From Shewanella livingstonensis (GTDB lineage Bacteria; Pseudomonadota; Gammaproteobacteria; Enterobacterales; Shewanellaceae), in the NCBI RefSeq assembly GCF_003855395.1, contig NZ_CP034015.1:62001-126000 (forward strand): a stretch of 64,000 nucleotides of DNA. The letters are read 5' to 3'. The position numbers were made by a program, and so were the translations under genes. Below the pieces are notes generated by a model that was not told the origin of the DNA, searched no databases, and was given only the letters and a program-made list of their open reading frames with translations. Shown here in pieces: positions 1 through 40,597 of this stretch (the stretch's first letter is position 1; each line of letters opens with the position of its first letter).

Positions 1-1055
1 GGATGCAACGCATCACGCCCTTTAGAGTCCCATACTATTCCCACACGTTGATCCGATAACTGCACGATGGAACCAACAGGATAAATGCCCACACAACGAA
101 TAAACTCATATACCAGTTTTTGATCGAGATGAAATGGGGTCAAGCTGATGAGTATTTTAAATGCTGCAGCAGGGCTCATGGCTTCTTTGTAGCAACGGGC
201 AGCGGTTAGTGCATCAAAAATATCAACAATACAACTCATACGTCCATGCTGGGGAAGTTGCTCGCCCTTTAAGCCGTTAGGATAGCCTTTACCATCAAGC
301 TTTTCATGGTGCATTAAGCACACATCTTTACTGACTTGTGATAGTCCTTTTGTTTCGTTCATGATTTCCATTGCATAGTATTGATGCAATTTCATGTGTT
401 CAAATTCTTCTGGCGTTAGCTTGCCAGGTTTGTGCAATATTTCGTTATCGACTTGAATTTTACCGATATCATGTAAAATCCCACCTACTGCCATCTGCTT
501 TAACAGTTCACGATCAAGATTGAGGTGTTTGCCAAATGTCACCAGTAAAAAAGCAACATTAATAGAATGTTCGAGTAAATAAGCATCTTTGGTACGTAAA
601 GCAGAGATACACTTAAACGCATCGGCATCGTCCATAACCGACTCAATCATTTTATCGGCGACATCTTCAAATTGATCCACATCGATGGCTTTACCACCGA
701 AGGTTTCGGACATTACTTTTTGGATTAATCCTTTTGCTTCGGCAAGTAATTTTTTAGCTTGTAGCTGCTGAACATCTCGAGTTACCGTGGCTTTACGCAT
801 CAGCGGACTACTAGCAGAGCTTGATCTCGGGGCTTTTTTTAAGCCACAATTATCTGACGACCTATCGACATCGACCCACACCAGTGCAATATTATTTTTC
901 TTCAGTTTTGCGATTGCATCACGATGTTTGATTTGGCCAGGGTTACGAATGGCGACTTTATTGAGCTGATGATCTATCGCCGTAACAAACATGCCTAAAG
1001 CAAGTTTATCTGTGGGGATTTTGATGACGTTGCTTGATTCAACAGAATCATTCAT
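1..1055 (-). CDS. HD-GYP domain cyclic-di-GMP phosphodiesterase (C-terminus outside window)
   Basis: Reading leftwards from ATG 1053-1055, 351 codons are visible and the frame is still open at base 1. The N-terminal ~130 residues resemble the DUF3391 domain that often precedes HD-GYP domains. The HD-GYP core is clear: HDIGK with H195-D196, then HHEKLDGKGYP at about 249-259, which carries the second metal-binding histidines and the GYP signature. Known members hydrolyse c-di-GMP to pGpG/GMP and lower biofilm signalling. No membrane segment or receiver domain is visible, so this is probably a cytosolic enzyme. A GGAG lies 11 nt before the start. Substrate is inferred from family motifs only. 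Confidence 0.88.
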   Translation of the reverse strand, partial: MNDSVESSNVIKIPTDKLALGMFVTAIDHQLNKVAIRNPGQIKHRDAIAKLKKNNIALVWVDVDRSSDNCGLKKAPRSSSASSPLMRKATVTRDVQQLQAKKLLAEAKGLIQKVMSETFGGKAIDVDQFEDVADKMIESVMDDADAFKCISALRTKDAYLLEHSINVAFLLVTFGKHLNLDRELLKQMAVGGILHDIGKIQVDNEILHKPGKLTPEEFEHMKLHQYYAMEIMNETKGLSQVSKDVCLMHHEKLDGKGYPNGLKGEQLPQHGRMSCIVDIFDALTAARCYKEAMSPAAAFKILISLTPFHLDQKLVYEFIRCVGIYPVGSIVQLSDQRVGIVWDSKGRDALH

Positions 1056-1111
1056 TGTACAAGTTACTCCAGGAGAGAAAACTAAAAGCGAGATCAAACT
1101 TACATATTTTT

Positions 1112-1157
1112 AACTATATTTTGAACTATATTTTGAACTATATTTTGAACTATTTTA
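1112..1157. repeat. 12-bp tandem repeat, about 3.8 copies
   Basis: The unit AACTATATTTTG occurs at 1112-1123, 1124-1135 and 1136-1147, followed by a partial copy to 1157. It sits in the divergent gap (1056-1416) between the HD-GYP gene and menF, starting 57 bp upstream of the HD-GYP start codon. The exact copies suggest recent slippage. The rest of this 361-bp gap is AT-rich and I see no clear operator or terminator in it. Confidence 0.9.
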
Positions 1158-1416
1158 CTCAGTTCAGCTAATTTTTACTTCATATGACCATATTAATGTT
1201 GATTATGCTTTTAAAGCACCTGAACAATACATATAACCCCACCATTGCAACTTAGGAGGCTATAAGTTTAACAACGGAATTGAATCGCTAAATAATACCC
1301 CCGATACTTGTCGAATACAAAAATCACTAACGTAACTGACTATATTAGCAATTCAGATCACACGCTTTAACCTTGCCAATTGACACTGTTTCATCGGTTT
1401 ATTAACGTTAACCCTC

Positions 1417-2799
1417 ATGCTGTTATACGAGAGGCGCAGATTGACAGGTCACTTTTTTTCATCACAATTTAGCGAATTAATCACTAAGATCGAACAACTG
1501 CGCAACATACCGATCTGTGATCCTATTGTGCAACTGTCTGTTAACGCTCCAGCACTGCCATTAATATCGTGGTTAAGTGCTCAAACATTATACCCCAAAG
1601 TTTATTGGCACGGCCGTGATAGAAACGAAGATGTCGCCGCCATAGGCTCATGCAAGACGTTTTATTTTGCTGACCAAATCGACGATAATGCTTTAGCACA
1701 AATTTATCAGCAACAGCGAAGCAAAACCAATCATCAAGATATTCGTTACTACGGCGGTTTAGCCTTCGATCGTACAGTAGAATGTTGGCCTGAATTTGGT
1801 CGTGCACACTTTATATTGCCCAGAATTGAATTACGCCGCAGTGGGAATCACGTTAGGGTATTAGTGAACCTTAATTTTGAAAATGGTGAAACTGAAGCCG
1901 AAATCCAAGCTGCACTTGATGCTATAAAAACAGTGCAAAAACCACGTCCCTTATCGCCGCCCAACAAACTCACATTAATGGGTCGGAGTGATTTACCTAA
2001 TTTTGCCCGCTGGAAGGAATTAGTTGAACAGGTCACCCAAGCTAATTTCATCAAATCGATACCCAAAGTCGTATTATCACGCCACAGCCAAATTGATGTA
2101 GATGATAATATTGACCCCTGGACAGTGCTAGCTTGCTGGCAAGGGCGTAATCCAAATAGTTTCCAATTTGGATTCCAATTTAGCCCTGAACGCGCCTTTA
2201 TATCTTGCTCACCAGAACGATTATACTTACGCCGTCAGCAAGAACTGTTTACTGAAGCATTAGCGGGAACGACGATTAGAGGACTTAATCCAGATGAAGA
2301 TAATTTATTAGCACAAGCGTTATTAGATGACATTAAAAATAGCCACGAGAACCAATTAGTCAGAGAACATATTGTCGATGTGCTAACGCCATTGAGCCAA
2401 TATGTAGGTGCTGATGAGCAACCCAAAATTTTTAAGCTTAATCATATTCAACATTTGCACCGCGCTATCCGAGCTCAGTTAAAACCCGGTGTGAGTGATT
2501 TTGAATTATTACGGGCTTTGCATCCAACGCCTGCTGTAGGAGGTTTACCACGCGATGCTGCACTGAACTTTATTCGTCAACGAGAAGGTTATGCTAGAGG
2601 CTGGTATGCTGGGGCTTGTGGGTATTTAAATCGCCATGAATCAGAGTTCTCTGTCGCAATTAGAAGTGCACTCATAGAGCCTAGAAGAATTAATTTGTTT
2701 GCTGGAGCAGGCATTGTAGCAGGCTCAGATCCTGAGGCAGAATGGCAAGAACTGGAAAATAAGTTAGCCACCGTTTTGTCTATTTTGATCGACTTTTAA
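1417..2799 (+). CDS. menF: Isochorismate synthase MenF
   Basis: 460 residues, close to the usual family length. It converts chorismate to isochorismate, the committed step of menaquinone synthesis. The C-terminal chorismate-binding domain shows the expected blocks: KVVLSRH near 218, SPERLYLRR near 270 followed by EALAGTTIRG, HPTPAVGGLPRD near 368, GWYAGACGY near 394 and AGAGIVAGSDPEAEW near 430. Menaquinone carries electrons in anaerobic respiration, a central trait of Shewanella. No menDH or other men genes are adjacent. The ATG at 1417 has only a weak ribosome site; a start a few codons downstream is possible. MenF is preferred over salicylate-specific or EntC-type enzymes because of overall motif similarity and no siderophore genes nearby. 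Confidence 0.9.
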   Translation: MLLYERRRLTGHFFSSQFSELITKIEQLRNIPICDPIVQLSVNAPALPLISWLSAQTLYPKVYWHGRDRNEDVAAIGSCKTFYFADQIDDNALAQIYQQQRSKTNHQDIRYYGGLAFDRTVECWPEFGRAHFILPRIELRRSGNHVRVLVNLNFENGETEAEIQAALDAIKTVQKPRPLSPPNKLTLMGRSDLPNFARWKELVEQVTQANFIKSIPKVVLSRHSQIDVDDNIDPWTVLACWQGRNPNSFQFGFQFSPERAFISCSPERLYLRRQQELFTEALAGTTIRGLNPDEDNLLAQALLDDIKNSHENQLVREHIVDVLTPLSQYVGADEQPKIFKLNHIQHLHRAIRAQLKPGVSDFELLRALHPTPAVGGLPRDAALNFIRQREGYARGWYAGACGYLNRHESEFSVAIRSALIEPRRINLFAGAGIVAGSDPEAEWQELENKLATVLSILIDF

Positions 2800-3058
2800 T
2801 CTTCCACTACTGTCCATCACCAATGAGGTTAACCTCAGCAAAATCTTTCGCTTGAGCAAAACACATGCTATTATCCGGCCCCCGTGTTTGCCAATACCTT
2901 GCTATTGCCTTGAAATAGGCCGGCTAACGGGTGTGCTTAAAGCAAGCACTGCATATAAACTAAAATAATAATATTCTCTATAACAGACATTAGCTTATCT
3001 GTTTAACTGCGGCTAAATAGCCTCATTAGCACAAGCAAGTACTGTTAATCAAATTAAT
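2800..3058 (+). other. Leader region upstream of yhhQ
   Basis: This is the non-coding gap after menF. A short inverted repeat, GTGCTT/AAGCAC, lies near 2933-2949 (GTGCTTAAAGCAAGCAC), and CCCGT (2881-2885) can pair with ACGGG (about 2956-2960), so a folded leader is possible. I cannot assign a known RNA family to it. The part next to yhhQ is annotated separately as a riboswitch. Confidence 0.35.
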
Positions 3059-3096
3059 AGCGGGTTCCCTCACCCCGTGCTAACCAATTAAAAAGG
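3059..3096 (+). promoter_or_regulatory. Candidate preQ1 class I riboswitch controlling yhhQ
   Basis: The 38 nt before the start codon follow the small preQ1-I layout. AGC-GGG (3059-3064) pairs with CCC-GT-GCT (about 3074-3081) around a C-rich loop, then comes an A-rich tail ending in AAAAAGG. The loop CCT (3068-3070) can pair with AGG of the ribosome site (3094-3096), forming the pseudoknot that would hide it. GGGTTC...ACCCC resembles the GGUUC...ACCC core of known preQ1-I RNAs. The downstream gene is the queuosine-precursor transporter, the expected target. The fold was judged by eye; the GT bulge in stem P1 is atypical. Confidence 0.55.
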
Positions 3097-3103
3097 CCAC
3101 AAT

Positions 3104-3784
3104 ATGTTGACATTAACCCAGGCGAAATATCGCCGAGCACTGATGCTATTAGTCAGTTTTCATATCTTAATTATTTGCGCAAGTAACTACCTTGTTCAAT
3201 TACCATTCCAGCTATTTAGCTACCACACTACTTGGGGTGCTTTTAGCTTTCCTTTTGTATATTTAGCTACCGACTTAACTGTTAGAGTGTTTGGTCAGCA
3301 AGCCGCTAGAAGTATTATTCTCAAAGCCATGGTACCAGCACTTGTGGTGTCGTATTTAGTTGGCGTATTGTTTCATCAAGGTCAATTACAAGCGCTTGAC
3401 GCCTTAGCCGAGTGGAATAATTTTGTGTTCCGCATTGCCTTTGCCAGCTTCGTGGCATACTTGATTGGCCAACTAATGGACATCACTGTATTTGCTAAAT
3501 TACGTCAAGCAAAGGCTTGGTGGGTCGCCCCCGCAGCATCAACATTAGTGGGTAACTTAGTCGATACCTTAGTGTTTTTCAGTGTGGCATTTTATGCCTC
3601 AAGTGATGTGTTTATGGCAACTCATTGGCCAGAAATAGCCACAGTTGATTACGCCTTTAAATTGATTGTGAGCTTAGGGTTGTTTCTACCCGCATATGGC
3701 GTGTTATTGAAAGTTCTGCAAGACAAGATTCTGCTTAATAGTGTTACCGATAATGACGGCGCTATTGTTCAAGTATCTAAATAA
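3104..3784 (+). CDS. yhhQ: Queuosine precursor transporter YhhQ
   Basis: 226 residues, nearly all hydrophobic with about six membrane spans, matching the COG1738/DUF165 family. E. coli YhhQ imports 7-cyano/7-aminomethyl-7-deazaguanine for queuosine tRNA modification. Recognisable blocks are FPFVYLATDLTVRVFGQ near 49-65, FIGQLMDI-type motif near 121-130 and GNLVDTLVFF near 150-159. Ribosome site AAAAGG lies 7 nt before the ATG and appears to be part of a riboswitch. The gene is monocistronic; menF is 304 bp upstream and the next + strand gene is an RNA. Confidence 0.88.
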   Translation: MLTLTQAKYRRALMLLVSFHILIICASNYLVQLPFQLFSYHTTWGAFSFPFVYLATDLTVRVFGQQAARSIILKAMVPALVVSYLVGVLFHQGQLQALDALAEWNNFVFRIAFASFVAYLIGQLMDITVFAKLRQAKAWWVAPAASTLVGNLVDTLVFFSVAFYASSDVFMATHWPEIATVDYAFKLIVSLGLFLPAYGVLLKVLQDKILLNSVTDNDGAIVQVSK

Positions 3785-4191
3785 TCATAATTATCGTTCA
3801 GGTAGACAAGTGAAAGCATCGTCGACTTTAATAACTGCGCCGACGATGCTTGACTCATTTAATGTGCTACATGTTTCTCAGGTTCGTGCGGTATAAATCC
3901 GCTAAAGAACATGAATATGATCTTTAGCGGATTTATACGAAGATTCCACCGATCGTTGGCCAATGTGTTTACTTTCGAAGTTAATAACAATCATAAACCG
4001 TAACCTAATCTTGAAGAAAACTAACCTTTAACACCATTATAAGCGCATCAACATAATCATATTTTATAGCGTTAATTTAAATACAACCACAGAGCAACAA
4101 AGCAACGGAATAATTTAACTATAAAAATCAACCGCTAAGCCTTAATTTATAATTAATTGAATGTAAAGATGAGATTTATAACGTTAAACAC
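3785..4191. other. Intergenic region with two inverted repeats after yhhQ
   Basis: The first hairpin pairs AGCATCGTCG (3815-3824) with CGACGATGCT (3841-3850), 10 bp with a 16-nt loop. The second pairs 3891-3908 with 3921-3938, a perfect 18-bp stem with a 12-nt loop. Neither is followed by a T-tract, so they are not classical terminators, although the first could still end yhhQ transcripts. The remaining ~250 bp are AT-rich with nothing I can identify. Confidence 0.7.
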
Positions 4192-4220
4192 TTGCAAACG
4201 ATAATGAGAATGATTACTAT
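4192..4220 (+). promoter_or_regulatory. ryhB promoter overlapped by a Fur box
   Basis: A -35 box TTGCAA (4192-4197) and -10 box TACTAT (4215-4220) are separated by 17 bp. The 19-21 bp starting at 4200 (GATAATGAGAATGATTACT) closely follow the Fur consensus GATAATGATAATCATTATC and cover the spacer and -10. Iron-loaded Fur would therefore repress transcription, as expected for ryhB. Confidence 0.82.
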
Positions 4221-4226
4221 TAAGTC

Positions 4227-4347
4227 GCGTTCCAAAACTCAGCTTAATAATTAGAGACTTCATCACCTTTAATTAGTATTCAGAGTTCGCAAGCACGACA
4301 TTGCTCACACACTCTTTGTGGCCGGATTAATCATCCGGCTTTTTTTT
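4227..4347 (+). ncRNA. ryhB: RyhB iron-responsive small RNA
   Basis: The core AAGCACGACATTGCTCACA (about 4291-4309) is nearly identical to the conserved pairing region of E. coli RyhB. The predicted start is about 4227, 7 nt after the -10 box. The end is an intrinsic terminator at 4321-4347, giving about 120 nt; I recall a RyhB of about 119 nt being reported for S. oneidensis. RyhB is known to silence iron-using protein mRNAs with Hfq when iron is scarce. It lies in the gap before the 3' end of the opposite-strand histidine kinase gene. The exact 5' end is inferred from promoter spacing. Confidence 0.88.
4321..4347 (+). terminator. Intrinsic terminator of ryhB
   Basis: GCCGGAT (4321-4327), loop TAATC, ATCCGGC (4333-4339), then eight T (4340-4347). 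Canonical form, and the 3' boundary of the RNA. Confidence 0.93.
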
Positions 4348-4361
4348 ACCTGTTTTTTGAG

Positions 4362-6506
4362 TTATTGAATTCTATCGCCAAAATGTAAACCCTCATAAGG
4401 CCCAAGTTGCTGATCATCTTTCGCTTTATGATAAAGCCCAATGGTAAATATAGTACCTTTTCCAACCGTCGAGCTCACTTCTATCGTCCCGCCAAGTCGT
4501 TTAATAATGCCATAACTCAAAGAGAGACCTAAACCAGTACCATCTTTACGTGTGGTATAAAATGGATCAAAGATACGACTCAAATCTTCTTTCGTTATTC
4601 CCATACCTTCATCTTCAACTTCAATTTTAACCCCAATAGCCTTACCATCTTCTAGCCAGTCGTAAGTTCGTAGCCAAATCCGACCTTTGTTCTCTATCGC
4701 ATGAGCAGCATTCACCATTAAGTTAATCAGTACTTGTAATAGCTGGGGACGATTGACTTCAACAGAGCCTGTAGCGGTGAACTCCTTGATCAGTGTGACT
4801 TCTTGCTGCTCAATAGAATGGCGGGCTAATAGCAGCATCTCTTCAACAATTTGAGTCACTGGTTGTAATGTTATAGGTGCGTTGAACTCCCCTGGACGGC
4901 TATATTGCAACAGGCTTCGAATAATCGTCGTAATCCGGCCCACTTGCTGGATCACCAATTCAATTTCTTCTTCAACTACCGCAGCATTATCACCAAGTTC
5001 ATATTTTAATAGCTCCATATTGCCCAAAATAACCGCGGTAGGATTATTAATTTCATGGGCGATACCCGCTATCAGTTCTCCCAATGCGGTGAGTTTTTCG
5101 TTAGTAACCAGTTGTTGCCGGGTTGCATGTAATAACGCCACATTACGCTCGAGCTCCTCAGTTTTATCTTGCAAACTGCGGGTACGCTGCTCAACTTTAA
5201 TTTCAAGTTGCTCTGCAGCGGCTTGAATTTGGGCATTACGCCTTTGTAATAAATCCAACATATTGTCAAATTGCTCAGCTAAATGCGCCAGTTCGTTATC
5301 GCCATTGATATCTAATTTACCAATCCTGATGTTGCGCCCTGATTGCACTGCAGTAACCACTTGATGAATATATTCAATTGGCTGTAACAAGCTGTTTGCA
5401 CCTCGATATACCAGAAAGCCTGAAATCAATAATACGAACACTAAAATGGTGCCCAGCTCGATAATATTGAGTAAATAATTGTGCAGAAAAGGCGATTCAG
5501 AAAAACCCGCATATACCATCCCAATCCTTTTACCGCGCACATCTCGTAAAGGCAAATAACCAGAGATATACCAATCATTAAGCACAAAGGCACGATTTAT
5601 CCAGGTTTGACCTTCAACAAGTACTTGCTGATAAACCTCATCAGACACCAGTGTGCCTAATGCTCGATTGGATTTACTCCTGTCTTTTGGAAATTGTTCC
5701 AACGGCACATTGGTGCTAATTCGAATATTATCTAGAAAAAGGGTAACGGTACCGATTGAGCGTTCAGGCAAGGTGCCTTTACCGTAGACGAGATCCCGAA
5801 TATTATCGACTATGGCGGTATTGCGGTTAAACAACATGCCACCATCTAAATACCAAAACACATTTCCCGAGAGATCAGCTATGGGTAATAAAGTTCGACT
5901 TAATAATCCACGAGTCTCGATATTTTGTTGCGGTTGTTTGGCATGCGATGTCGGAACCAGGGTAATTTGAGCCTGAGTTGCTAAACTGGCATTAATTCTT
6001 TCAAGACGTTTGGCTGATAATACCATAAAGCCTGAAAAAGCTTTTTGTTGAGTTTGGTGCAACATCATGCGTAAGTCTGGGTCAGCGGCAGCATCTGCGA
6101 CACTAATTAACCGGAGAAAGTCTAATCCTGACGTTTGTTGTTGCTGTGCTAATAGTATATTTAAGGCATTAATTGCATTGGGGTTCGGTTGTTGTTCCGT
6201 GTGTTTTAATAGCCTAAATGCGTGTTGAAAGTCCCATGATGCACTGATTGAATCTAAGCGGTCTTGTTGTCTTTCCTGCACCTGTACTAAAGTGCTATTG
6301 GCGACAACTAAGTCTGCCTTTACCTTCATAAACAATTGCTTGCCTGTGTAGATTACATTCCAGTAAATAGTAATAAACACCAAGCTAATCAACGTTAATA
6401 AAATAGGCAGCGATGTCAAAAACAAAATACGATAACGTACTTTGGCTTGCATTTGCTGCCAACTAATACCAAAAATCCGGGTAAAAACACCTGTAGAATG
6501 CACCAC
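4362..6506 (-). CDS. Membrane sensor histidine kinase (partner of the sigma-54 response regulator)
   Basis: 714 residues. Membrane segments lie at about 26-52 and 348-368 and bracket a ~295-residue periplasmic sensor region that looks Cache-like. A HAMP region (about 370-425) and a coiled coil (425-475) follow. The HisKA motif GIAHEINNP has phospho-acceptor H484. The ATPase domain has NLMVNAAHAIE (N box), DEGMGI (G1) and GTGLGLSLSYG (G2). Its ATG at 6504-6506 lies 2 nt after the stop of the response-regulator gene, so the two form an operon with the regulator first. The ligand is unknown. Adjacency to tungstate-transport genes suggests, but does not prove, that it senses an anion or cofactor state. 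Confidence 0.9.
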   Translation of the reverse strand: MVHSTGVFTRIFGISWQQMQAKVRYRILFLTSLPILLTLISLVFITIYWNVIYTGKQLFMKVKADLVVANSTLVQVQERQQDRLDSISASWDFQHAFRLLKHTEQQPNPNAINALNILLAQQQQTSGLDFLRLISVADAAADPDLRMMLHQTQQKAFSGFMVLSAKRLERINASLATQAQITLVPTSHAKQPQQNIETRGLLSRTLLPIADLSGNVFWYLDGGMLFNRNTAIVDNIRDLVYGKGTLPERSIGTVTLFLDNIRISTNVPLEQFPKDRSKSNRALGTLVSDEVYQQVLVEGQTWINRAFVLNDWYISGYLPLRDVRGKRIGMVYAGFSESPFLHNYLLNIIELGTILVFVLLISGFLVYRGANSLLQPIEYIHQVVTAVQSGRNIRIGKLDINGDNELAHLAEQFDNMLDLLQRRNAQIQAAAEQLEIKVEQRTRSLQDKTEELERNVALLHATRQQLVTNEKLTALGELIAGIAHEINNPTAVILGNMELLKYELGDNAAVVEEEIELVIQQVGRITTIIRSLLQYSRPGEFNAPITLQPVTQIVEEMLLLARHSIEQQEVTLIKEFTATGSVEVNRPQLLQVLINLMVNAAHAIENKGRIWLRTYDWLEDGKAIGVKIEVEDEGMGITKEDLSRIFDPFYTTRKDGTGLGLSLSYGIIKRLGGTIEVSSTVGKGTIFTIGLYHKAKDDQQLGPYEGLHFGDRIQ

Positions 6507-6508
6507 GT

Positions 6509-7897
6509 TTAGACTTCCTCGAAACCTTGCTCTGGGTGATTAAACCAGTCTTTAAATTTCCGGTCTAAGGTTTTTCGAGACACACCTAAATCGCGTGCTG
6601 CGGCGGATTTATTACCATTATGGTTACCAACCACTTTAGTAACATGTTGCTTTTCAACTTCTTTCAATGGCCAGTTTAACGGGTAGCCCATGGCATCGTT
6701 AACCGTAACCGACATCGGTTTTTTCCAATATTCCGCAGGAGGTTTACCTAATAAGATACAACGTTCAATCATATTGCGTAGTTCACGAATATTGCCGGGC
6801 CAATCATGTTGCTGTAGTACTTGTAGGTCTTCGTGGCTCCAAATAACATCTTTTATGCCTAGCTCTTGTGACAACTGCAAAGTAAAAAAATGAGTCAGTT
6901 CAACAACATCATCAGGACGAGAGCGCAGAGATGGAATAACAATATTCAACACATTTAAACGATAAAATAAATCGCGCCTAAAACGCCCCGCTTCAACTTC
7001 ATCAATCAGTAAACGGTTAGTTGCCGCAATAACGCGCACATTTATATCAATTTCTTTTTCACTTCCAACAGGCCGAATAGCACGCTGCTCAAGTACTCGC
7101 AGTAAGGCTGTTTGCATATTCATCGGCATTTCGCCAATTTCATCTAAGAATATAGTGCCGCCAGAAGCATAACTGAATAGCCCTTCTCGATTACCTTTTG
7201 CGCCAGTAAACGCGCCCGCAGTATGACCAAACAACTCACTGGCTAATAATTCCGGGGCTATCGCGCCACAGTTAACGGGGACAAAAGCACCACTTCGGCC
7301 ACTGAGTTGATGTAACTGTCTGGCCACCAGCTCTTTACCGGTACCAGATTCACCTTCAATTAATACCACTGCGTTAGTCGGGGCGATGCGTTCTATGACT
7401 TCTTTAACATCACGAATAGCTTCACTGTTGCCGATAATAGTGGATGATTGTCCGTGCGATAATTCTCGCCTAAGCATAAAGTTTTCGCGCTTAAGTAAAC
7501 GTTTTTCGATACAACGATCGACAGCGGTGACCATTTGCTCTAAGTGAAATGGTTTCATAATAAAGTCAGACGCACCCGCACGTAATGCTTTGATGGCTAC
7601 ATCCATATCAGCATAACCGGTCATAAAAATAATATCGGATTGACGCTCGGGATCATTCAGCGCTTCATGCCACTCGATACCGGAACGGTCGGGTAAGCGA
7701 ATATCCACAATCAGTAAATCAAAATGACCATGGCTGCGTAACTCTTCTGCTTGAGCAATGGTAGAGGCGGTTTCAACTAGGGCAAACTTTTTTGCCAAGG
7801 CTTTCATCAAAAAACTTCTCATACCTGGTTCATCATCAACGATAAGAACTGACATGGTGGTCTTGCTTACTGGGGAAATATGTTCATTTGGACTCAT
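6509..7897 (-). CDS. Sigma-54-dependent response regulator (NtrC/DctD family)
   Basis: 462 residues in three domains. The receiver (about 15-125) has phospho-acceptor D65 within IVDIRLPD. The AAA+ sigma-54 activation domain (about 150-385) carries Walker A GESGTGKE, the sigma-54 contact loop GAFTGA and Walker B GGTIFLDEIGEM. The C-terminal Fis-type helix-turn-helix is GNKSAAARDLGVSRKTLDRKF (about 429-449). M15 (MSVLIVDDE) is an alternative start. Such proteins bind upstream sites and activate promoters of the -24/-12 class. One such element lies 190 bp away in front of the divergent tupA gene, making that operon the obvious target candidate. Confidence 0.93.
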   Translation of the reverse strand: MSPNEHISPVSKTTMSVLIVDDEPGMRSFLMKALAKKFALVETASTIAQAEELRSHGHFDLLIVDIRLPDRSGIEWHEALNDPERQSDIIFMTGYADMDVAIKALRAGASDFIMKPFHLEQMVTAVDRCIEKRLLKRENFMLRRELSHGQSSTIIGNSEAIRDVKEVIERIAPTNAVVLIEGESGTGKELVARQLHQLSGRSGAFVPVNCGAIAPELLASELFGHTAGAFTGAKGNREGLFSYASGGTIFLDEIGEMPMNMQTALLRVLEQRAIRPVGSEKEIDINVRVIAATNRLLIDEVEAGRFRRDLFYRLNVLNIVIPSLRSRPDDVVELTHFFTLQLSQELGIKDVIWSHEDLQVLQQHDWPGNIRELRNMIERCILLGKPPAEYWKKPMSVTVNDAMGYPLNWPLKEVEKQHVTKVVGNHNGNKSAAARDLGVSRKTLDRKFKDWFNHPEQGFEEV

Positions 7898-8084
7898 AAA
7901 TGGACTCTTATGTGGACATTTTGACGCGCTTTACAACACTGTATCACCTAAACCAAATGACTTGGTCACTATGAACCACAGAAAAGTGATCGTGGGACAA
8001 TTTGTCTAACATAAATGTTTACAGCTTGGGAGCAAGTTCACAGTTTCGATTTTATGCGTGAACTGTATTTGCATTAACACTGCT

Positions 8085-8100
8085 TGGCATCTAACTTGCT
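8085..8100 (+). promoter_or_regulatory. Candidate sigma-54 (-24/-12) promoter for tupABC-mobA-mobB/moeA
   Basis: TGGCATCTAACTTGCT at 8085-8100 fits the RpoN consensus TGGCACG-N4-TTGCW with exact GG-to-GC spacing (GG 8086-8087, GC 8098-8099); the mismatches are C6 to T and G7 to C. The expected start is near 8110, leaving a ~80-nt leader. Upstream are two symmetric candidates for activator binding: GACAA-T-TTGTC (7996-8006) and AGTTCAC...GTGAACT (8035-8041/8058-8064). A sigma-54 activator is encoded divergently next door. Confidence 0.55.
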
Positions 8101-8190
8101 TATTGCATTGGTAATTAAGCAAGATGGCTTAATGTTTTGTACAAGAATTCAGTATGAACATCATGATTATTAATATATCAAGGAGCGGCA

Positions 8191-9015
8191 ATGTTAAAAC
8201 TCAAAGCAAGCGTTAGTATTCTGTTGGCGGCATCGGTACTCAGCGGAGCAATGTTCAGCCAAAGTGTACTCGCAAATGAAGTGATCAAATTAGCGACCAC
8301 TACTAGCACTGAAAACTCAGGATTACTGGGTGCGCTGTTACCAAAATTTGAAGCAGAATCAGGCTATAGTGTACAGGTGATTGCTACGGGTACAGGTAAA
8401 GCATTGAAGCTGGCAAGTCAGGGAGATGTTGATGTAGTCATGACTCATGCGCCAGAAGCCGAAGCAAAGTTTGTCGCTGACGGTTACGGTATTGAGCCTC
8501 GCGGTATTATGGAAAATGATTTCATTGTATTGGGCCCTAAAAATGACCCTGCAGCGGTAAAGTCGAGCAAAGATGCTACCGAAGCATTCAGTAAAATTGC
8601 TCATAAGCCAAGCAAATTTGTATCTCGTGGTGATAACTCTGGCACCCATATGAAAGAACTCGCGATTTGGAAAGATGCTAGCGTTACCCCTGATTTTAAT
8701 GGCTATACTTCTGTTGGCCAAGGCATGGGTAAAACCTTATTGATGGCTAATGAGTTCCAAGCTTATACATTAGCAGATCGCGGTACGTATATTGCTTATA
8801 AAACTAAACTAGACCTTAACATTAGTTTTGAAGGCGGTGCTGAGTTGGCTAACCCTTATCAAATTATGTTGATTAACCCAACAAAATACCCAGACCTTAA
8901 TCATAAAGGTGCCAGAGCGTTAAGCGATTGGTTTATCAGCCCTGCAACACAAACCTTGATTAATAATTATAAAGTGCAAGGAGAGCAATTGTTTAAGGCA
9001 ACGTATAAAAAATGA
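8191..9015 (+). CDS. tupA: Tungstate ABC transporter substrate-binding protein TupA
   Basis: 274 residues with an N-terminal signal peptide (cut likely after VLA-N near residue 29). The mature start IKLATTTSTENSGLL carries the TTTS anion-binding motif typical of TupA. GDVDVVMTHAPEAE and SRGDNSGTHMKE are further family blocks. TupA binds tungstate in the periplasm with higher affinity than molybdate. AAGGAG precedes the ATG. The stop overlaps tupB by 4 nt, so the two are translationally coupled. WtpA or generic phosphate-type binding proteins are less likely given the TTTS context and the neighbouring molybdenum-cofactor genes. Confidence 0.87.
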   Translation: MLKLKASVSILLAASVLSGAMFSQSVLANEVIKLATTTSTENSGLLGALLPKFEAESGYSVQVIATGTGKALKLASQGDVDVVMTHAPEAEAKFVADGYGIEPRGIMENDFIVLGPKNDPAAVKSSKDATEAFSKIAHKPSKFVSRGDNSGTHMKELAIWKDASVTPDFNGYTSVGQGMGKTLLMANEFQAYTLADRGTYIAYKTKLDLNISFEGGAELANPYQIMLINPTKYPDLNHKGARALSDWFISPATQTLINNYKVQGEQLFKATYKK

Positions 9016-36466: not shown

Positions 36467-39223
36467 ATGCCAACGATTCCCAATAACCCGCTCATCCTCG
36501 TTGATGGATCATCTTATCTTTATCGCGCTTATTATTCGCCGCCTCATTTAACCAATTCAAAAGGTGAAGCTACAGGCGCCGTTTATGGTGTTGTTAATAT
36601 GCTTCGTAGCTTGCTCAATCGCTACAGCCCAAGTCATATTGCTGTCATTTTTGATGCTAAAGGCAAAACCTTCCGTAACGATATGTATGGCGAATATAAA
36701 GCCCAGCGTCCACCGATGCCCGATGATCTGCGTAGTCAAATAGAACCGTTACACAAAATCATTCACGCTATGGGTTTACCATTGATCAGTATTTCTGGTG
36801 TCGAAGCCGATGATGTTATTGGCACCATCGCCCTTCAAGCGAGTAAAGAAGGCCGAGCAACGTTAATCAGTACCGGCGATAAAGACATGGCGCAGCTCGT
36901 CAATGAGCATGTCACCTTAATCAATACCATGACAGATACCATTATGGGACCCGAAGAAGTCAAGACGAAGTACGGTGTTAACCCAGATAGAATAATCGAC
37001 TTCTTAGCACTAATGGGTGACAAATCTGACAATATTCCAGGTTTACCCGGCGTCGGCGAAAAAACCGCTTTGGCCATGTTAACCGGAGCAGGCAGTGTTG
37101 CCCAGTTACTTGCCGATCCACAGAGTGTTGTCGACATGGGTTTTCGGGGCTCAAAAACAATGCCGACTAAAATTATTGATAATGCCGACATGTTAAAGCT
37201 ATCTTACGAGCTAGCCACCATTAAAACGGACGTAGAACTAGAACAAGACTGGCATGAGCTCAATGTTAAGCCACAAGATCGTGATGAACTGATTAAATGC
37301 TTTGGTGAAATGGAGTTCAAGCGTTGGTTAGCTGAAGTATTAGATAACAAGCAACCTCGTGGCACCGTTAACGACGATAGTGATGAAGAAATCATCGTAT
37401 CGCCAACTATTGAAGCTGAATATGAAACGATTCTGACTATGGAAGCTCTCGACAAATGGATCGAACAGCTTAATAGCGCCGACCTGATTGCGATTGATAC
37501 TGAAACCACTAGTCTCAATTACATGGAAGCAGAACTTGTCGGTTTATCATTTGCTACCGAAGCAGGTAAAGCAGCTTATTTACCATTAGCACATGACTAC
37601 CTTGACGCACCAGAGCAAATAGATAAAGCCAGTGCACTTGCAAAGCTGCGACCGATACTTGAAAGTGAAACGCCACAGAAAGTGGGCCAAAACCTTAAGT
37701 ATGATATGAGTATTTTAGCCAATGCTGGAATTACTCTCAAAGGCATACGCTTTGATACCATGCTCGAATCCTATGTGTTTAATTCAGTGGCATCGCGCCA
37801 CGACATGGATGGTTTAGCGCTTAAATATCTTGGCCATAAAAATATTAGTTTCGAAGAGGTCGCTGGTAAAGGTGCAAAAAAATTGACCTTTAACCAAGTT
37901 AATTTAGATATAGCTGGCCCATATGCTGCTGAAGATGCCGATATCACCCTGCGTCTACATCAACACCTATGGCCAAGATTGGAAAAAGAACCTGAGCTAG
38001 CTTCGGTATTTACCGAATTAGAACTACCGTTAATTCAAGTATTATCAGACGTTGAGCGCCAAGGTGTATTGATTGATTCAATGTTACTGAGTCAGCAAAG
38101 TGGTGAATTAGCCAAAAAACTCGATGATCTTGAAAATAAAGCCTACGAAATTGCTGAAGAGAAGTTTAACTTAGCCTCGCCTAAGCAACTGCAAACGTTA
38201 TTTTTTGAAAAACTGGGTTACCCAGTGAAGAAAAAAACGCCTAAAGGCGCGCCATCAACAGCTGAAGACGTGTTAGCAGAACTGGCACTTGATTACCCTT
38301 TACCGAAAATTATCCTTGAACATCGCAGTCTAGCCAAACTAAAGAGCACTTATACCGATAAGCTACCACTAATGGTTAACGCTACTACAGGTCGAGTTCA
38401 TACCAGTTATCACCAAGCTAATGCTGCAACTGGCCGCTTGTCATCAAGTGAGCCAAACTTACAGAATATTCCCATTCGTACCGAGGAAGGCCGCCGTATT
38501 CGCCAAGCCTTTATCGCTCCCGCGGGTCGTAAGATTTTAGCAGCCGATTATTCACAAATTGAATTACGGATCATGGCGCACTTATCCCAAGACGCAGGTT
38601 TATTAACAGCTTTTGCTGCAAATAAAGATATTCATAAAGCTACTGCAGCGGAAGTTTTTGGCGTACATTTCGAAGAAGTGACGACAGAGCAGCGTCGCCG
38701 CGCTAAAGCGGTTAACTTTGGCTTAATTTACGGTATGTCAGCATTTGGTTTAGCCAAGCAGTTAGATATTCCACGTAACGAAGCCCAAACCTACATCGAC
38801 ACTTATTTTGCTCGCTATCCAGGCGTGCTCAAATACATGGAAGAAACCCGTGCCATTGCGGCTGAACTAGGTTATGTATCAACGTTATTCGGACGTCGGT
38901 TATATTTGCCTGAAATCAACGACCGCAACGCCATGCGTCGCCAGGCTGCTGAACGCGCTGCGATTAATGCGCCAATGCAAGGTACTGCAGCAGACATTAT
39001 CAAAAAAGCCATGATTGCCATTCACCAGTGGATTAACCAAGACACTCAAGGTGAAATAACCCTGATAATGCAAGTACACGATGAATTAGTGTTTGAAGTG
39101 GATGAAGCTCAAGCTGAAACGCTCAAAACTAAAGTGTGCGACTTAATGGCGCAAGCAGCATCATTAGACGTCACCTTATTGGCAGAGGCAGGCATTGGCA
39201 ATAATTGGGATGAAGCCCACTAA
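36467..39223 (+). CDS. polA: DNA polymerase I PolA
   Basis: 918 residues (E. coli 928), all three domains intact. The 5' nuclease (about 1-290) starts with [17 protein letters not shown] and includes EADDVIGT. The 3'-5' exonuclease (about 330-520) has [20 protein letters not shown] and AAEDADITL. The polymerase (about 530-918) has motif [14 protein letters not shown]-helix [15 protein letters not shown] and motif [12 protein letters not shown]. It fills gaps in repair and removes Okazaki primers. The gene order polA-spf-engB is the same as in E. coli. Confidence 0.98.
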
Positions 39224-39316: not shown

Positions 39317-39514
39317 TTAACTTATGCAAACTGTTTTATCACGTGATATAAACCTTAAAAAATTAACCTACAACCAATATCCTGCCTAATACCACAACAT
39401 ATTCACCGGCTCAGTTAACAAACTTACTTTGATTTGCTCACATAGTCACAGTTATTATATCTTTTTATAGGAAACAGTTTTTCATTTTAAGGCGGATACG
39501 CTATTATATTCTTC
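39317..39514 (+). promoter_or_regulatory. Promoter region of spf
   Basis: A -10 box TATTAT at 39502-39507 is 7 nt before the predicted RNA start at 39515; the -35 is weak (TTTTCA near 39479-39484, 17-bp spacer). E. coli spf is repressed by CRP, but I found no convincing CRP site here; the nearest words have the wrong spacing. Confidence 0.5.
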
Positions 39515-39624
39515 GTAGGGTACAGAGGTTAAGATGTTCAATCTTTCAAACCTTTATTTCACTAGCGATAGTGACTAGCCAAATTCGGCGCCCCAGCAAT
39601 CTAGGTTGCTGGGGCTTTTTTTTT
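39515..39624 (+). ncRNA. spf: Spot 42 small RNA
   Basis: The first 20 nt, GTAGGGTACAGAGGTTAAGA, match E. coli Spot 42 almost exactly, and TGTTCAATCTTTCA continues the match. Length is about 108 nt (E. coli 109). The end is a strong terminator: GCCCCAGCAA (39590-39599), loop TCTAGG, TTGCTGGGGC (39606-39615), then nine T. Spot 42 is an Hfq-dependent regulator of galactose and secondary-carbon metabolism. It has the conserved position between polA and engB. Confidence 0.95.
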
Positions 39625-39689
39625 GATTTTTTTCCATCATTAAAAATATTTAGAGTAAATACTTTAATGTTGATAAAAAAACAGTTATT

Positions 39690-39809
39690 ATGTCGTTATT
39701 GAGCGCCATCAAATTGAGTTGATGGCACTTGAGTCTTGTTGAATTTAGCTTCTCCCCAAAAGAGCTAATTTATTTGTACCGATGGCCGTTTGGTTATCGG
39801 TTTTTTTTT
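39690..39809 (+). ncRNA. Candidate unassigned small RNA downstream of spf
   Basis: Between spf and engB lies a segment with three successive stem-loops ending in its own terminator. Stem 1 is GCCATCAA (39705-39712)/TTGATGGC (39719-39726); stem 2 is TTAGCT (39745-39750)/AGCTAA (39763-39768) with a C-rich loop; stem 3 is CCGAT...ATCGG (39779-39800) with nine T (39801-39809). A TATTAT box lies at 39686-39691, but the -35 is weak and the box sits close to stem 1. No coding frame. I recall a second sRNA near spf in Vibrionaceae (VSsrna24); whether this is related is unknown. Confidence 0.5.
39779..39809 (+). terminator. Intrinsic terminator of the candidate sRNA
   Basis: CCGATGGCC...GGTTATCGG stem (39779-39800) with nine consecutive T. 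No annotated gene lies between this and the spf terminator 155 bp upstream, which is why an RNA gene is suspected. Confidence 0.85.
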
Positions 39810-39851
39810 GCTTAAAAATCACCATTATTACAATATAGAAAACACAGATGC

Positions 39852-39876
39852 AAAAAAGCCGACATCGCTGCCGGCT
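39852..39876 (-). terminator. Terminator of engB
   Basis: On the minus strand AGCCGG...TCGGCT is followed by TTTTTT (plus-strand A-run at 39852-39857). It lies 35 bp after the engB stop. Confidence 0.85.
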
Positions 39877-39910
39877 CTTAGTTTTACTAATCTATAATAT
39901 CACTCGACCA

Positions 39911-40597
39911 CTACTCTGGTGCTAATTCCGACGCTGACGCTTGCTCAGCCTTCTGTTCAGCTAACCATTCAGGATGGCACCAATCGTTTAAAATACTCAA
40001 TACCTTAGGCTTACCTGTGCCTTTGAGTGACGACAAAGTCTCTACCTGTACTTTATCACCAAAACTCTTTAGGGCTGCACGCACATCATTAACCGTCTTC
40101 ATTTTGACGCTTTGAGTCAATTTATCGGATTTAGTTAATAAGGCTAATACTGGAATATTGCTCAATACTGCCCACTCAATCATTTGCATATCGAGATCTT
40201 TCAGCGGATGACGAATATCCATCAATACCACCACACCGCTTAAACAGGCACGCTTTTGTAAGTACTCGCCCAGCGCCTCTTGCCATTTATTTTTTAATGC
40301 TAGAGGGACTTGTGCAAAACCATAACCTGGTAAATCGACTAAACGACGATCATCATCTAACTGAAATACGTTAATTAATTGGGTTCGACCCGGTGTTTTA
40401 CTGGTTCTGGCTAAACTTTTTTGTTCAGTAAGCGCATTTAATGCACTGGATTTACCAGCATTAGAGCGCCCTGCAAATGCAATCTCAATCCCGATATCCC
40501 CAGGAAGATACTGATCTAAATGCGCAATGTCTGGCGCACTGATTAAAAACTTAGCCCTACGGAAATCGATACGAGATTCTGTCACTCTTAACTCCAA
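39911..40597 (-). CDS. engB: Ribosome-biogenesis GTPase EngB (YihA/YsxC)
   Basis: 228 residues. The TRAFAC GTPase motifs are complete: G1 [12 protein letters not shown] (about 43-54), G2 [10 protein letters not shown]3 DLPGYGFA, G4 LTKSDK and a G5-like SSLKGTG. It is needed for large-subunit assembly. The opposite strand orientation relative to polA and spf is the same as in E. coli (yihA). Confidence 0.95.

Follow-up and report, generated by a model that had tools for sequence, protein, structure and literature searches.

Between the Spot 42 gene (spf) and engB on the chromosome of Shewanella livingstonensis lies what is very probably an independent gene for a trans-acting small RNA (sRNA) of ~113 nt, equipped with its own promoter and terminator, probably controlled by a transcription factor of small regulon, and acting most likely by Hfq-assisted pairing with mRNAs. 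The first-pass annotation of the 64,000-nt stretch of DNA analysed here (the window) had suggested such a gene, and this is now supported by stems that are conserved and co-vary, by a core present in nearly every Shewanella genome and by promoter elements belonging to the sRNA itself. Shewanella is a model for extracellular electron transfer and, to our knowledge, few base-pairing sRNAs have been characterised in the genus. The new sRNA is unusually conserved in its core and operator, nearly genus-wide; the operator offers a handle for finding the regulator, and the locus invites the question why sRNA genes recur in the polA-engB interval.

The gene order in the window is polA (36467-39223, plus strand), Spot 42 (39505-39623, plus strand), the new sRNA segment and engB (39911-40597, minus strand). 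Spot 42, which adjoins the new gene and lies outside it, is identified by Rfam family RF00021 (87.5 bits against a cut-off of 80), and engB by its open reading frame, the same protein finding engB beside related loci in tblastn searches. The T-run of the spf terminator ends at 39624, just as the annotation had it, and a second intrinsic terminator (39778-39801, with nine T at 39801-39809) follows with no gene in between: among the open reading frames that overlap 39625-39910, whichever the strand, the longest runs to 43 codons and begins within spf. The new gene occupies 39697-39809 on the plus strand (113 nt), as delimited by its fold, a block of conservation and covariation; its 3' end lies in the T-run and its probable 5' end at 39697/39698, within the range suggested beforehand (39690-39700), which is consistent with a conserved -10 box at 39686-39691. 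That engB is convergent speaks against a role for the RNA as a cis-acting leader. By eye, a minus-strand inverted repeat followed by a T-run can be seen at 39852-39873; this is probably the engB terminator.

Folding of the RNA at 39697-39809 gives -35.5 kcal/mol (z = -4.62, with none of 200 shuffles as good) and the three stem-loops that had been predicted for the segment. Without the terminator the z score is -3.10 (one of 200 shuffles as good) and for the terminator folded by itself it is -4.50 (none of 200 equally stable), whilst the preceding stretch, 39625-39696, has structure no greater than chance (z = -0.97). Stem-loop 1 (39699-39732, plus strand, as are the elements that follow) is variable in sequence. 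It leads into a near-invariant core at 39729-39768 made up of a linker, TTGAGTCTTGTTGAA, and a C-rich hairpin, TTTAGCTTCTCCCCAAAAGAGCTAA, which we propose as the base-pairing region; the unpaired part of the linker is UCUUGUUGAA and the hairpin carries CUUCUCCCC. Stem-loop 2 (39746-39767) has the stem TAGCTT / GAGCTA and the loop CTCCCCAAAA, with 98.9% of cells paired across 46 sequences, and the C-rich TCTCCCC to which attention had already been drawn (39751-39757) forms part of this hairpin's loop and top. Stem-loop 3 (39778-39809), recognised by fold and covariation, is the intrinsic terminator with its nine T.

Conservation of the stems across Shewanella had been set beforehand as a test of the proposal, and the stems are both kept and co-varying. 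RNAalifold, applied to 46 diverse sequences, returned three helices with 22 pairs, 13 of which show at least one two-sided compensation: all seven pairs of helix 1, one of six in helix 2 (a single pair because this helix hardly varies) and five of nine in helix 3. On the consensus structure 95.3% of cells are paired against a shuffled mean of 89.3%, doubly changed cells number 91 against 26.4 and the covariation score is 0.346 against 0.226; for further pair types the observed value was reached by 19 of 500 shuffles, and for the other measures by 0 or 1. Controls with slid alignments score far below the observed pairing, which has the advantage in that comparison that the consensus structure was derived from the same alignment.

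The core, scored by script with up to six edits allowed in 22 nt, was found in 115 of the 117 Shewanella genomes searched and is nearly as widespread as Spot 42, for which there is a match in 116; a BLAST match to 39640-39830 is present in 114. One genome missed by BLAST (G101) possesses a diverged copy of the sRNA (E = 8e-15). In another (G017, locus L070) spf and engB are present and neither operator nor sRNA was found between them, making it the sole one of the 116 genus genomes more than 90% complete to lack both. In G102, which is 52% complete, neither spf nor the sRNA element was seen. The closest relative of the window in the genome set (G086) is 97% identical across the 191 bases compared. 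When 44 other Shewanella sequences were aligned with the window (45 in all), identity to the window was 0.96-1.00 across 39729-39768, 0.88-0.90 in the operator region (39649-39668) and 0.88 in the T-run. The variable segments of the RNA gave 0.4-0.8, and sequence belonging to neither operator, RNA nor terminator mostly 0.1-0.5. A named species collection, which may omit the records nearest the window, contained the core pattern in 71 stretches, 70 from Shewanella and one from Parashewanella, and no meaningful match to the sRNA was found in a plasmid collection. There is a short open frame in the window's core (TTG TTG AAT TTA GCT TCT CCC CAA AAG AGC TAA), but the idea that the segment encodes a micropeptide has next to no credibility: it has no ATG, in 22 of 115 loci the TTG and the later codons no longer share a reading frame, and conservation tracks the hairpins.

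Upstream of the RNA stands an 18-bp near-palindrome, TTAGAGTAAATACTTTAA (39650-39667), a candidate transcription-factor operator centred at about -40 and overlapping the -35 region, and 18 bp after it comes a -10 box, TATTAT (39686-39691, plus strand). The operator, with the consensus TTAGAG[CT]A[AT][AT]TACTTTAA (position 8 also scored as T), matches in all 114 Shewanella loci reaching that far, in 110 of them with 18 of 18 letters and in four with 17 of 18. A -10 of the form TANNNT is present at the fixed offset in 111 of the 114, and the distance from operator to 5' stem motif is identical in 105 of 113 loci; in six of those 113 the script did not find the 5' stem motif at the expected distance. 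Judged by its sequence, the sRNA gene has a promoter of its own.

These elements bear directly on whether the segment might be a 3' extension or read-through product of spf with no promoter of its own, an explanation that we consider very improbable. The RNA lies on the same strand as spf and starts only ~72 nt beyond its T-run, but the spf terminator is strong, and the -10 box and 18-bp element are kept at fixed spacing. In one Shewanella genome (G052, locus L089) ~8.57 kb lies between spf and the sRNA, with operator, -10 and sRNA intact after the insert, and relatives of similar architecture in group f6 occur with no polA or engB within 1.5 kb (f and g labels denote numbered family-level and genus-level groups in our order-level genome set). 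Gene layout, structure, conservation, promoter elements and separability from spf can all be read directly from the genomes compared. Seen by eye, the L089 insert itself (~420-8990 after orientation) looks like an export cluster of the bacteriocin type, its genes encoding an HlyD-like protein, an ABC exporter, a GG-leader peptide and small membrane proteins.

The sRNA gene is probably controlled by a dedicated transcription factor, since the near-palindrome is present in 114 of 114 genus loci and also after spf in 16 of 30 non-genus genomes. In these 16 (four f25, two f10, four f6, five f15 and one f1/g2) spf is followed at 11-244 nt by the operator with no more than one mismatch; the remaining 14 have no operator site at that place. 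In the f25, f10 and f6 intervals inspected a -10 box and then a candidate RNA lie downstream, the C-rich core not being seen in f10. Within the window's own genome the sole zero-mismatch match to the operator is that upstream of the sRNA, two-mismatch matches being about as numerous as with a reversed control, and 58 of 60 genus genomes contain one or more exact matches to a somewhat relaxed pattern, with few control matches.

Additional operator sites hint at what else the factor might control. Five Shewanella genomes and one f6/g38 genome have sites ~240-300 bp upstream of a DUF1302 operon (loci L143, L147, L149, L159, L332, L336); in the window's own genome the site, at G000:C1:2308412, carries mismatches. 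Clustered sites precede an operon encoding a membrane protein and DUF5692 in three Shewanella and two f1/g2 genomes (L144, L152, L153, L329, L330), and two of the three Shewanella sites stand opposite an HlyD operon. Of the names used for these neighbourhoods, DUF1302, DUF5692, DUF2835, OEP, HlyD, hydrolase and malate synthase are Pfam names on single representatives, and DUF1329, YCF48, RND and others were assigned by eye. Single one-mismatch sites near fadL- and fadD-like genes may be due to chance. Two f1/g2 genomes (L334, L335) have a CsgD/LuxR-like gene ~1.6 and 6.5 kb away from operator sites, which is only a lead to the operator's factor. A further palindrome, seen by eye in f6, overlaps the -10 box and looks repressor-like; activator and repressor are both compatible with the arrangement.

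Expression, the transcription factor, Hfq dependence, pairing and targets belong to a mechanism that we infer. Transcription would start at around 39697/8 from a sigma-70-type promoter whose -10 is good and whose -35 is poor. A factor with a very small regulon would bind the 18-bp element over the -35 and set expression, whether by class II activation or by repression. The gene's own terminator would release the RNA with a U-tail resembling an Hfq-type 3' end; the U-tail and the A/U-rich stretch before the terminator are compatible with Hfq, nothing more. Most likely with the help of Hfq, the unpaired linker and the loop of the second hairpin would then pair with target mRNAs. The invariant, unpaired linker and the C-rich loop would seem the natural pairing regions, and the C-rich loop would suit purine-rich ribosome binding sites.

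Three hunts for targets were made, none of which produced a supported candidate. The complement of a 14-mer from the core occurs at 24 places in the window's own genome with up to two mismatches (reversed control, 11), the sRNA gene itself among them and none convincingly at a start site. When four genomes were searched with a Shine-Dalgarno anchor, TGGGGAGA preceded ATG at 39 places against 21 for the control; 30 of the 39 were read, and start sites noted by eye were those of birA-, algH- and DUF3373-like genes in the window's own genome and of a cstA-like gene in G106. The third hunt looked at conservation of the best candidate, the DUF3373 site: the mean z score was -0.59 (30 of 42 genomes having the gene), and the candidate was rejected, as in most of the 30 species the site is just a typical ribosome binding site rich in purines.

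Rather than mRNAs, the partner of the new RNA might be its neighbour: as a sponge, it would pair with Spot 42 and titrate it. In all twelve duplexes inspected UUUAGCUUCU of the core can pair with AGAGGUUAAG, close to the 5' end of Spot 42, and in a cruder test across 111 loci the mean pairing energy was -31.4 kcal/mol against -26.2 when Spot 42 was simply shuffled. When only the unpaired part was used and the shuffling was by dinucleotides (44 loci), however, the mean z score is -0.77, barely above shuffles; both sides are nearly invariant, so that covariation is uninformative, and several f6 relatives are found in genomes with no Spot 42 match at E <= 1e-4. We regard a sponge as improbable and favour pairing with mRNAs.

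Relatives of the sRNA are also found outwith the genus. A covariance model built from 46 Shewanella sequences (R1) matched at E <= 0.01 in 57 of 394 order-level genomes, comprising 30 from the genus, three from its sister genus f1/g2, five from f15/g16, eight from f6 and 11 others. The loci of 19 of the 27 hits outside the genus were fetched. In 11 of these polA and/or engB lie beside the match (L193-L200, L203, L208, L210); by eye, four more (L201, L202, L204, L206) combine the core with a -10 box and an operator-like palindrome but show no polA or engB within 1.5 kb, and another four (L205, L207, L209, L211) resemble chance terminators. The matches in f15/g16 and f1/g2 sit 110-156 nt after weak Spot 42 matches. 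Features common to the groups are a TGTTG-like linker, an AGCTT(C)TCCCC hairpin and a terminator. As a separate observation, f6 contigs G121:C32, G269:C1, G337:C1, G243:C1, G417:C1 and G185:C1 contain two model matches each, ~2 to 90 kb apart, and G256 has two on separate contigs.

A second model (R2, 26 sequences, its own members matching by construction) gave matches at E <= 0.001 in 77 of the 394 genomes. Five non-model genomes have an R2 match 51-144 nt after spf: G406 and G454 (f25) and G166 and G433 (f6), whose genera are represented in R2, and G135 (f20/g21), whose genus is not. In f25/g35 only four of the 21 genomes with spf have a match at the locus, and two of those four are model members. 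As the R2 consensus structure retained only the terminator, its matches at E of ~1e-5 to 1e-3 in f2, f3, f7, f8, f9, f11, f16, f18 and others, and one f25 match away from spf (G397), may be due to chance. At L297 (f20/g34) a C-rich hairpin (CCAATCCCCCCTTATTGG) unlike R1, followed by a terminator, was noticed ~230-300 nt after spf; this is perhaps a further spf-linked sRNA.

No Rfam family matches the new sRNA above threshold. The best sub-threshold match, to Hrs13 of Erwinia amylovora (RF02631), scores 23.3 bits (E = 0.0009 for 286 bases) against a cut-off of 52 bits, its alignment being mainly to the terminator and skipping the loop of the C-rich hairpin; hrs13 is reported at ansP/EAM2411, not polA-engB (PMC4070566). 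SdsR, Qrr and anti-hemB were likewise set aside, their matches being below cut-off and largely to the terminator. E. coli CsrC is reported from an interval downstream of spf (PMC3295665). GGA is absent throughout 39697-39809, which argues against a CsrA sponge of the CsrB/CsrC type.

The open literature, supplementary sRNA lists aside, yielded no earlier description of this Shewanella RNA, and no RNA-seq or Northern data on the locus were found in it. In S. piezotolerans 209 sRNAs have been predicted (PMC5471319); the main text of that paper makes no mention of spf, Spot, engB or polA and its sRNA list sits in the supplements, so absence of the new sRNA from print is not established.

Three further known RNAs invite comparison. 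Spot 42 is its neighbour on the same strand, of similar size and likewise ending in an intrinsic terminator, but the two differ in sequence and have separate promoters, and no match to RF00021 was found in 39625-39910 at E values up to 5. The second is the Vibrionaceae sRNA near spf that the first-pass annotation had mentioned, correctly: this is VSsrna24. According to PMC3295665 it was first a computational prediction in Aliivibrio salmonicida and was then shown on Northern blots and by 5' RACE; it lies 262 nt downstream of spf, is ~60 nt long and glucose-repressed, and is said to be confined to the Vibrionaceae. It is also mentioned in V. cholerae (PMC13250501). Like the new sRNA it lies downstream of spf and before engB, probably with a C-rich stretch ahead of its terminator. 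We compared ten f21 loci, taken as Vibrionaceae-like from their genome layout. In eight of the ten, CTCTCC occurs 294-420 nt after spf, ahead of a terminator, and this C-rich element may be VSsrna24. That the new sRNA is the Shewanella counterpart of VSsrna24 nonetheless seems rather unlikely, even though both occupy the same interval. Neither operator nor first hairpin was seen at the Vibrionaceae-like loci, and R1 with filters off overlapped the C-rich stretch in four of ten at 6.5-11.4 bits (E 0.67 to 9.7), a background level no better than on spf terminators, so that no homology was found in these ten loci; f21 genomes are also absent from the R2 matches at E <= 0.001, and the reported ~60 nt compares with ~113 nt here.

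The third RNA is ErsA of Pseudomonas aeruginosa. Two sources (PMC8575079, PMC5819304) give it as a 132-nt RNA of the polA-engB interval that is sigma-22 dependent and in which a U-rich unstructured domain separates stem-loop 1 from stem-loops 2 and 3; further sources on its location and domain order are PMC3349714 and PMC7264166. Hfq dependence is described for several targets in PMC8575079, from which PMC5819304 seems to differ for amrZ. Compared by description only, ErsA and the new sRNA share both the interval and the order hairpin, linker, hairpin, terminator, above all in the f6 relatives, where the linker is long and U-rich as in ErsA, whereas that of the Shewanella sRNA is short. That the new sRNA is a distant homologue of ErsA, from an old lineage predating or accompanying Spot 42, is a tentative possibility, the likeness being one of described hairpin order, which is weak evidence, and the sigma-22 dependence reported for ErsA standing against the sigma-70-like -10 box conserved at the new sRNA. 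With similar reserve, we suggest that the polA-engB interval of gammaproteobacteria could house an old sRNA lineage apart from Spot 42, laid out as stem-loop, linker, C-rich hairpin and terminator, with members in the Shewanellaceae and no fewer than three other family-level groups (f6, f15 and f25, perhaps f20) and with ErsA, and perhaps VSsrna24, as diverged members. In the groups compared here it would be governed by one transcription factor through the nearly invariant 18-bp operator and form an arm of an envelope/lipid response. The other conserved target of that factor would be the DUF1302-DUF1329-YCF48-RND operon, and the sRNA would accordingly supply the post-transcriptional arm of the response.
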